Virus record (IMG/VR): IMGVR_UViG_3300005618_000045
Coordinates: 1 to 29,987 of that record
Direction: 5' to 3' (one strand)
Length of the DNA stretch: 29,987 bases
Source of the DNA: a virus
Shown piece by piece: positions 8,185 through 9,808 of this stretch. The number at the start of each line of letters is the position of its first letter. The stretch's first letter is position 1. Below the pieces are notes generated by a model. That model saw only the letters and a list, made by a program, of their open reading frames with translations, did no database searches and was not told where the DNA came from. The translations under genes and the position numbers were made by a program.

Positions 8185-9808
8185 ATGTCCGGCCCGACAA
8201 CCTCCAATATTCTGCCTCCAGCTGTTCAGCAGCAATTGAGCATGAAATTATTGGCACGTCCTATGCCAGACTTGATTCATACTACAATGGGTTACCCCAT
8301 CACAATGGATCAACAAGCTGGCGATATTCTGAGACGACGACGTTATCAGAACTTGCTAACCGCTCCAGTGCCTTTAGGCAATGGAATTGTAGACCCACCA
8401 GCGCAGCAACTTACAGCGCTTGATATTGATGCTAGAATTGACTGGTATGGAACTTACATTATACTGCAAGAGCAGGTAATGTTGATTAACGAAGACCCTA
8501 GACGTATACATGGGGTCTATAAATCTTCTCTGATGGACTTGAAACCCTTCGCTATGGCAGCATAGAAAGGCAACAAGGGGCAAGATTATGGATGAAAATA
8601 TAATAGATTATTTTGAAATGAAATTATTGCAGAATCCTAAAAGAGAGGTGCAATCAGATGGTTACATTAAAGAAATCTATAATCAGCCTGAACGCAGTAA
8701 GCGAGAAGACCTTAAATATTACTATGTTTGTTTAGAAGAGGATAGTTGTAATTGTCCAAATCCTTGGCATACCTGTTTTGAAACAGATTCAAAACAAGAA
8801 GCTGAAGAATGGGTAAATAGGATGCCTCATAAACGTACATGGCATGAACATATTAGGGATGCGGTACTCTGAACACTATGGAAACATAGTGAGGCCAGCT
8901 GAGAAGATTTGGCCCGCCTAGATTACTAGGTCAACAAGTAACAGATTGGTGTTAAACAGCGCAGTGTCTACATTAGGCCAGTCTCTTCGAGAAACAGAAG
9001 ACCAATTGGCTCGTAGCATGATGGAGGGGGGTGCTCCGCCGATTAATTGTACCTCTGGTACCAACGGTAAGGCATATTGGGTTATTGCCGTTGTAAAATT
9101 TCCTCTGATTGAGGTGGAACTCTCTAATAGAGACAACACTGCGCAAGCGAAAGCAGCGTAATCGACTGAGTGAGGAAACTCGAAAGAGATGCGACAGTCA
9201 GGCCTCATAGGTGACTATGAGAGGGAGATCCGAAGAGGTTTCCCCGCCATAGAAATATGGTCAATAAAGTAACAGAAACGGACAACCCAACAAACATCAG
9301 CCCATTGGATTGCAGCAAAGTCGTTCGCTTATTGCGCACTGCTAATGCACAATTCATCATGGACTTGATTGAAGGCGAAGACAAATTCGGTACTGGTCCA
9401 GTTCGTACCTGCTTCTTTGGCTTAACTCACACTAACCTTAGTGCTGACTTAGATCAAATGGTGGGCTTCCAGAACGTTGCGCAGTATGCGAATACAGCAA
9501 ACCTATTGCAAGCGGAATGGGGTACTATTAGAAACATCCGTTTCTTATTGTCCTCTGTTGGTAGTATTTCGCCTAATGCTTCTGCTAATGGACAAGACGT
9601 TTATAATATCTTTATTCCAGGACAGGAAAGCTATGACATGGTTGATCTTGATGGCTATAGTGCGCAGTTTATCTATGCACCGCCAGAGATTGCATCACCA
9701 CGTTTAAGATTGTATCAAACAGCAGGCTGGAAAATGGCGCAAGTATTCAACATCACTAACACCTCTTGGATCGTCAACTTACGTTGCACGCTTCAAGTAG
9801 CACTATAG
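8185..9808 (+). CDS. Major capsid protein, N4-gp56-like, split into three exons
   Basis: Exons 8185-8499, 8949-9068 and 9281-9808 join in phase 0 to give 320 residues (105+40+175). They are separated by two group I-like introns. The rebuilt protein reads through the family-typical D-P-V-L-N junction followed by L-G-Q-S-L-R-E-T-E-D (exon 1/2). It continues with an A-E-W-G-T-I-R-N-I-R-F core and a C-terminal hydrophobic strand (exon 3). These resemble the N4-gp56 major capsid family of HK97-fold shell proteins. Without splicing, exon 1 runs on only 21 codons to TAG at 8563-8565 and exon 2 runs to TAA at 9159-9161, so no full coat protein is made. The scaffold lies just upstream, as expected. 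Confidence 0.88.
8500..8948 (+). ncRNA. Group I-like intron 1 in capsid gene (449 nt, ORF-bearing)
   Basis: The exon end AGACCCT (8493-8499) pairs with the guide GGGGTCT (8512-8518), seven pairs ending in the diagnostic U.G at the 5' splice site. The intron ends in G8948. The exon 2 start GTGT can pair with ACAT (8508-8511) as P10. The core includes P7 (GGGTA 8811-8815 with TACTC 8865-8869), P8 (ATGCC 8822-8826 with GGCAT 8841-8845) and J8/7 AGGGATGCGG (8855-8864). Three 3' hairpins follow: 8874-8891 with a GAAA loop, 8893-8914, and 8917-8930. All match intron 2 in order with compensating changes. An ORF fills the P6-P8 region. P3 to P6 were not resolved. Confidence 0.85.
8588..8872 (+). CDS. 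Intron-encoded protein of unknown type (94 aa)
   Basis: A 94-residue protein inside intron 1. It has an acidic N-terminus and a central aromatic stretch (K-Y-Y-Y-V-C-L-E-E-D-S-C-N-C-P), giving a small Cys cluster. The C-terminal half (E-A-E-E-W-V-N-R-M-P-H-K-R-T-W-H-E-H) contains three His. It lacks LAGLIDADG, GIY-YIG and a recognisable HNH or His-Cys box signature, and is shorter than most homing endonucleases. Its last about 60 coding bases also form P7, P8 and J8/7 of the ribozyme, and its TGA stop lies next to P7'. The ribosome site is GGGGCAAG upstream. It may be a maturase, a very diverged nuclease or an unrelated passenger. Confidence 0.65.
   Translation: MDENIIDYFEMKLLQNPKREVQSDGYIKEIYNQPERSKREDLKYYYVCLEEDSCNCPNPWHTCFETDSKQEAEEWVNRMPHKRTWHEHIRDAVL
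9069..9280 (+). ncRNA. Group I-like intron 2 in capsid gene (212 nt, minimal)
   Basis: The exon end CAACGGT (9062-9068) pairs perfectly with the guide GCCGTTG (9087-9093), closing with the U.G pair. The intron ends in G9280. P7 is GACTG (9164-9168) with CAGTC (9195-9199). P8 is GAG-GAAA-CTC (9172-9181). J8/7 is AGAGATGCGA (9185-9194), nearly identical to that in intron 1. Hairpins follow at 9204-9221 (GTGA loop), 9223-9244 and 9247-9260 (GAAA loop), then the conserved tail GGTCAATAAAGTAACAGA. At 212 nt it is close to the smallest self-splicing group I introns known (Azoarcus tRNA-Ile, about 205 nt). TTGGGTT (9077-9083) can pair with AACCCAA near the start of exon 3 (9284-9290). Confidence 0.85.

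Follow-up and report, generated by a model that had tools for sequence, protein, structure and literature searches.

Putative group I introns in a phage capsid gene have read-through frames ending in Ala-Ala, a probable built-in degron for truncated capsid subunits

In the window, by which we mean the whole 29,987-nt stretch of viral DNA analysed here (IMG/VR record IMGVR_UViG_3300005618_000045), the major capsid gene is interrupted twice, which raises the question of how the complete coat protein is made and what becomes of chains that end inside an interruption. The interrupted gene spans positions 8185–9808 and consists of the following parts.

8185–8499, plus strand: exon 1 of the major capsid gene, 105 codons (phrog_1357, major head protein, 9.5e-6; also matched by relatives)
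8500–8948, plus strand: putative group I intron 1 (449 nt), inserted in phase 0 behind codon 105
8949–9068, plus strand: exon 2, 40 codons
9069–9280, plus strand: putative group I intron 2 (212 nt), inserted in phase 0 behind codon 145 (a row of alignment A2, below)
9281–9808, plus strand: exon 3 including the stop codon (phrog_1357, 3.4e-16 for the frame 9257–9805)

Exon 1 ends with ...GAAGACCCT at 8499, and the first insertion ends with ...ACAGATTG at 8948, after which the capsid frame resumes with GTG TTA AAC (Val-Leu-Asn) at 8949. A sequence-only reading had proposed a compact group I-like intron at this place, and its account of the coding sequence was borne out: the capsid frame stops at a TAG (8563–8565) and resumes at 8949, and joining 8499 to 8949 restores phase 0, with codons 105 and 106 in frame. 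The proposed Asp-Pro/Val-Leu join agrees with the uninterrupted relatives, which read EDPVLN here. When 8185–8499, 8949–9068 and 9281–9808 were joined, they encoded 320 residues without an internal stop, a protein for which some relatives have an uninterrupted gene. Exons 1 and 3 each matched PHROG 1357 (major head protein), in parts that follow one another. The capsid gene is accompanied by genes for a P22-type portal (PF16510) and a large terminase (phrog_2), indicating that the virus is a tailed phage.

The RNA helices assigned to the two insertions are listed below; the core strands of intron 1 were placed by eye and by script.

8493–8518, plus strand: P1 of intron 1, exon AGACCCU (8493–8499) with guide GGGGUCU (8512–8518), U.G at the splice site
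within 8524–8709, plus strand: P3 of intron 1, UCUUCUC (8524–8530) with GAGAAGA (8703–8709), covariation in relatives
8538–8541/8574–8577 and 8578–8581/8686–8689, plus strand: P4 and P6 of intron 1, covariation in relatives
8696–8868, plus strand: P7 of intron 1, AGUA (8696–8699) with UACU (8865–8868), GACUA/UAGUC in relatives
9062–9068/9087–9093, plus strand: P1 of intron 2, CAACGGU/GCCGUUG, U.G at the border
9099–9105/9172–9178 and 9164–9168/9195–9199, plus strand: P3 and P7 of intron 2

As had been read from the letters, P1 of intron 1 has seven pairs, the last of which is U.G, and the intron ends in G (8948); intron 2 also has a terminal G (9280). The exons vary from site to site, yet elsewhere too the guide pairs with the exon beside it and U.G stands at the border; rows in which P1 had G.U pairs or a long loop, or in which the borders were shifted, escaped the strict P1 test applied there. 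Alignment A2 comprised 57 compact cores out of 83 deduplicated ones, with intron 2 included and intron 1 left out for its long inserts. RNAalifold recovered P3, P4, P6 and P8 from A2, with 20 of 21 pairs changed on both sides. When the P7 pseudoknot was added, 98.7% of 1479 cells were paired, compared with 82.0% in shuffled and 37.7–49.6% in slid alignments, and changes on both sides were seen at 21 of the 26 pairs overall. These included 7/7 pairs in P3; in P7, four of the five pairs were invariant and one covaried. The predicted core of P3, P4, P6, P7 and P8 is supported by this covariation in 57 related cores. P1 with its U.G pair, the terminal G, the P3, P4, P6 and P7 strands, the homologous introns and the covariation support a group I intron at 8500–8948, and both capsid insertions are best regarded as group I introns that would be spliced in this phage.

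The covariance search with the group I model, which the sequence-only reading had named as a check, was negative: RF00028 of Rfam gave no match within the window. An RF00028 match is a detection score and not a defining feature of group I introns. The model matched the T4 introns (3/3) as a positive control, found nothing in a run on 14 loci, and gave a single 25.3-bit match in four related records, in the record of locus L004. The nil result in the window and the one match of about 25 bits in these records indicate that the model misses most of this intron group. A 43-bit sub-threshold match lies elsewhere in the genome of a Parachlamydia bin (L360; genome G002, contig 75).

Viral contigs were scanned with exon 3, giving 380 relatives, 80 of which were kept; with the window they form 81 loci (L001–L081), where L001 is the window's own sequence and L002 its duplicate. 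The loci were compared by spliced alignment, and composites at codons 87/98, which had been mis-split, were read anew. In this clade (clade 1), 14 of the 81 loci are uninterrupted over at least residues 3–321 of the alignment, and the remaining loci are partial, more distant or interrupted. Interruptions occur after codons 14, 36, 78, 87, about 98, 105, 118, 133, 145, 183 and 216, most of them in phase 0, with up to four per gene (L007, L010); nine of the 81 loci, L001 and L002 counted, have an insertion exactly at codon 105. The capsid gene is a hotspot of such putative introns in its clade, with about ten sites. Among isolates, blastn with the intron region gave no match, and a capsid search gave four records of 24–28% identity.

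Longer introns of the relatives contain LAGLIDADG endonucleases (some matches fall below the Pfam cut-off), so that the intron set is probably mobile; the two introns of the window contain no recognisable endonuclease. Intron 1 contains a small frame of its own.

8588–8872, plus strand: 94-aa frame running through P6', P7 and P3', with its stop in P7'

Pfam and PHROGs assigned this frame to no known family. Small, unrelated frames, several of them Cys-rich, lie likewise inside introns of L065, L069, L076 and L004; all of these frames continue through P6', P7 and P3' and have the peptide QPERSKRED or QPERL in common.

If the message is not spliced, translation of the capsid frame would run into each intron and end as follows.

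8500–8565, plus strand: read-through of intron 1 from exon 1, 21 codons and then TAG, ending Phe-Ala-Met-Ala-Ala (Ala-Ala-stop at 8557–8565)
9147–9161, plus strand: Ala-Lys-Ala-Ala-stop within the P6 loop, where the read-through of intron 2 from exon 2 ends

The two tails read ...LMDLKPFAMAA (intron 1) and ...DNTAQAKAA (intron 2). Such endings recur throughout clade 1. After exclusion of duplicate sequences and of the second member of the 87/98 composites, 60 distinct introns lie beyond codon 70, and the capsid frame ends in Ala-Ala-stop in 56 of them and in Ala-stop in 60/60; in the other two frames of the same introns, Ala-Ala-stop was found in 0/60 and 1/60. The background on these contigs is 49 of 1733 other long ORFs. 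At the early sites 36 and 14, 24 of 25 introns would end translation immediately or two codons in, and 0/25 end in Ala-Ala; the 36-residue chain made from a site-36 intron may need no tag. Although the 60 introns are not independent events, because introns within one site share ancestry, the tails use 14 codon/stop combinations and their positions vary: in the 1.2-kb introns of site 105 they lie close to the 5' end, at sites 78 and 145 they fall in P6, and at site 87 they are found in mini-introns, so that P1 loop, P5, P6 and mini-intron are all represented. This spread across sites and structural positions is a stronger argument than the raw counts. A contig in a Parachlamydia bin (L350) has five capsid-gene introns, of which those at late sites end in LLAA or LEAA before the stop and those at early sites do not.

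An RNA element can encode the same peptide wherever it lies, and one such element separates RNA from protein constraint. In some introns the P3-P4-P5 element is read in the capsid frame, whereas in site-36 introns it follows the translation stop. With the frame fixed relative to the RNA, and with duplicates and introns lacking the 5' core motif left out, 28 of 30 read copies end in Ala-Ala-stop, as against 0 of 15 unread ones (Fisher 4e-10), and a pure RNA constraint was rejected on this result. The comparison shows an Ala-Ala end that is evidently under selection at the protein level, and only where the frame is expected to be translated. Intron 2 is a weak single case, because a P6 loop of such sequence gives AKAA-stop as RNA.

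The tmRNA (ssrA) tag directs unfinished proteins to ClpXP-type proteases. One feature of an ssrA-type tag, a small nonpolar C-terminus, typically Ala-Ala, is present in both FAMAA and AKAA of the window; the upstream adaptor-binding part (AND..) is absent from both tails and present in three other phage loci (L155, L183 and L082, below). A further feature is a likely host whose own tag has the same ending. The genome collection gave six matches, including one Simkaniaceae bin and one Parachlamydia bin; the others lie in bins of unlikely hosts, indicating that at least part of the binning of the phage contigs is wrong, and these two MAG bins assign the phage only weakly to a Chlamydiota host. 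The tmRNA tags end in ...LQAAA in the Simkaniaceae bin and ...LMAA in the Parachlamydia bin, and the tag of a Methylococcaceae bin is ANDENYSMALAA. Further Chlamydiota tags come from 29 of the 47 genomes above the cut-off, and G001, of the same set, was read as well; of these 29 further tags, 28 end in AA and one in QVA. The ending is therefore shared by two Chlamydiota bins and 28/29 further tags, for a host assignment that is itself weak.

Tails of this kind were also seen outside clade 1. A J8/7-P7 pattern search returned at least 120 stretches; from the matches listed, 72 host frames were kept by a fixed rule (90 codons or more, and double the length of the next frame), most of them of the same broad capsid family and including homing-endonuclease frames such as L165 and L175. 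Among these listed matches, 28 of the 72 host frames end in Ala-Ala-stop and 41 in Ala-stop, whereas control frames gave 5 and 10 among 141 ends. In three related P22-type coat genes the read-through ends in VANDEKFALVA (L155, whose coat gene is phrog_283; region 1380–1700), VANDSSFALVA (L183) and CANDQSFALVA (L082), in each case just beyond the likely 5' splice site, and the introns of these genes appear to encode near copies of the tmRNA tag, for which ANDENYSMALAA serves as a real example. The tag of E. coli is AANDENYALAA, and in a phrog_1357 capsid gene (L129) P1 (UGACCCU/GGGGUCA) is followed by FVENYALAA-stop. Tape-measure-type genes (L139, L154 and L159; PHROG run for L139) have GALAA or GASAA ends. 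The rule is not universal: P22-type coat genes have Ala-Ala-stop in 1/12 and Ala-stop in 5/12, several ending in ...SGLVH or ...TYVH, and the Ala-Ala tail is absent from a major head gene (L115, ...GVTLH), two terminases (L118 and L126), a ribonucleotide reductase (L125) and T4 td, nrdB and nrdD (FLG, SFA and ELT). The sister capsid clade (clade 2, L264–L343) has as many introns, with Ala-Ala-stop in just 2 of 51 later-site tails, counted without duplicates and seven composite second members. Its later-site tails end in Ala, Ser, Gly or Cys in 33/51 (other frames 8/51 and 3/51), and those beyond codon 100 in 21/26 (other frames 4/26 and 0/26), suggesting that clade-2 tail ends are also under some constraint, other than the Ala-Ala rule. 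Clade-2 ends include VAIS, VAYS, LLS and EA, that is, small residues rather than Ala-Ala.

The capsid intron of mycobacteriophage LittleE and the minor tail intron of BAKA are group I introns whose splicing was proven by RT-PCR, according to the excerpted text of PMC3706429. Their read-through frames end in ...SVATAAA-stop and ...DLAAAAA-stop, 9 and 10 codons in, within a hairpin whose loop contains the stop; the LittleE intron is carried by 29 phage records, 27 of which are other than LittleE. The sequence-only reading had called a group I intron inside a coat protein gene uncommon. As to occurrence this was too strong, given the LittleE capsid intron (PMC3706429, in excerpt), and what stands is that the density of introns and the in-frame degron-like tag found here are unreported in the literature found; a search of open-licence papers revealed no link between phage introns and ssrA-type tags.

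Considering these data, we think it probable that the capsid gene carries group I introns with a built-in degron, which would clear truncated capsid subunits made before splicing; degradation is a prediction from the tail sequences. We infer splicing in vivo, translation of the unspliced message, breakdown of the resulting fragment, the protease involved and the damage that capsid fragments would cause as the steps of the following scheme. Exon 1 would pair with the guide (P1), the ribozyme at 8500–8948 would excise itself from the capsid mRNA with the terminal G defining the 3' splice site, and the in-frame join would fall between codons 105 and 106. Since bacterial ribosomes would arrive while the 3' half of the intron is still to be transcribed and folded, truncated capsid chains would be hard to avoid. 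Splicing of one T4 intron is reported to depend on translation (excerpt of PMC11878797), and a translated unspliced message is therefore to be expected. Such a message would be read for 21 codons into the intron and stop right after ...Phe-Ala-Met-Ala-Ala, an end that resembles the tmRNA tag and may send the fragment to ClpXP or a related protease. The degron would thereby remove capsid fragments that could jam capsid assembly.

The introns could instead be ordinary group I introns, with Ala-Ala-stop a by-product of GC-rich P5, P6 or P1 hairpins or of one ancestral intron that spread to several sites in the same phase. A GCGAAAGCAGC-type P6 loop does give AKAA-stop in one frame, KAA ends occur among the control frames, the tags of intron 2 and of the mycobacteriophages lie within such hairpins, and most sites are phase 0; but the same element in the same frame gave 28/30 when read and 0/15 when unread (a small set), the tags occupy different structural places with 14 codon/stop combinations, and other capsid genes encode sequences close to real tags, so we consider this origin unlikely. 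That read/unread difference would also suit selection of the peptide end for a purpose other than degradation: the truncated capsid N-terminus may be wanted as a decoy or assembly factor, or the end may aid termination and free the ribozyme core, and the translation dependence reported for the splicing of one T4 intron (PMC11878797, excerpt) suggests that ribosome behaviour at an intron matters. The near copies of tmRNA tags (ANDEKFALVA, ENYALAA) nevertheless point to proteolysis, clade-1 truncation points scattered between codons 78 and 216 do not suit one functional fragment, and a termination context would not require Ala-Ala in all codon forms, which makes a role of this kind improbable.

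A capsid gene that contains no intron at all, being broken, misassembled or interrupted by an intein, would fit with Rfam finding nothing in the window. We give this hardly any credence, since seven loci other than L001 and L002 have an insertion at codon 105, the exons are intact and in phase, and the insert has early in-frame stops and covarying group I helices. An intein or a frameshift was rejected on account of the stop early in the insertion.

The degron-bearing introns proposed here share with those of LittleE and BAKA the group I type, the location in virion genes, the U before and the G at the end, and an Ala-rich read-through; the mycobacteriophage introns, which are spliced in vivo, differ in intron sequence and host phylum and occur once per gene, and the excerpt of PMC3706429 makes no mention of a tag. 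T4 td, nrdB and nrdD likewise have a group I core with P7 and a terminal G in phage genes, and homing endonucleases are common to the T4 system and the long introns of the window's relatives, but the T4 introns lie in enzyme genes and are found by RF00028, unlike those of the window. The likeness to the tmRNA tag lies in the C-terminal Ala-Ala and, in some phages, also in AND..FALVA or ENYALAA; the window's tails match at the last residues only. Unlike the tmRNA tag, which trans-translation adds, the intron tag is encoded by the intron in the host gene's frame and precedes an ordinary stop codon. If true, the degron would explain how several introns are tolerated in the most highly expressed structural gene though translation outruns splicing, and it would connect bacterial protein quality control with splicing by ribozymes. 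The laboratory phages LittleE and BAKA, with M. smegmatis as host, would allow the prediction to be tested. A simple sequence test for introns missed by Rfam would be to look for Ala-Ala ahead of the first in-frame stop.

In 43 loci of both clades, an extra stretch of 28–51 nt lies upstream of a full intron (for example, L004, L011, L016 and L031 at codons 87–98 in clade 1, and L265, L283 and L292 at codons 89–98 in clade 2). These mini-introns start after U in a P1 of their own (GAUUGGU/GCCAAUC in clade 1 and UUUACGGU/GCCGUA in clade 2), contain an in-frame stop (in clade 1 usually after ...LLAA) and end in G, and they have no catalytic core. They have to be removed for the capsid frame to pass through the 31-nt exon (clade 1) or the exon of at least 26 nt (clade 2) that follows. 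Translational bypassing was rejected: take-off and landing codons are not matched in both clades, and the U|...G borders and P1 fit splicing. A full intron lies downstream in 43/43 (P7 pattern in 38/43; spliced alignments in L011, L296, L333, L336 and L340), and we hypothesize that mini-introns are spliced by the core of the neighbouring intron. More broadly, and leaning slightly to doubt, we tentatively propose that group I introns of virion genes have repeatedly evolved an in-frame tag, as a form of proofreading by ribozyme and host protease, and that a neighbour's core removes coreless mini-introns across a very short exon; the spliced message would then give coat protein and the unspliced message self-destroying fragments. 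The clade-1 mini-intron folds together with the short downstream exon.
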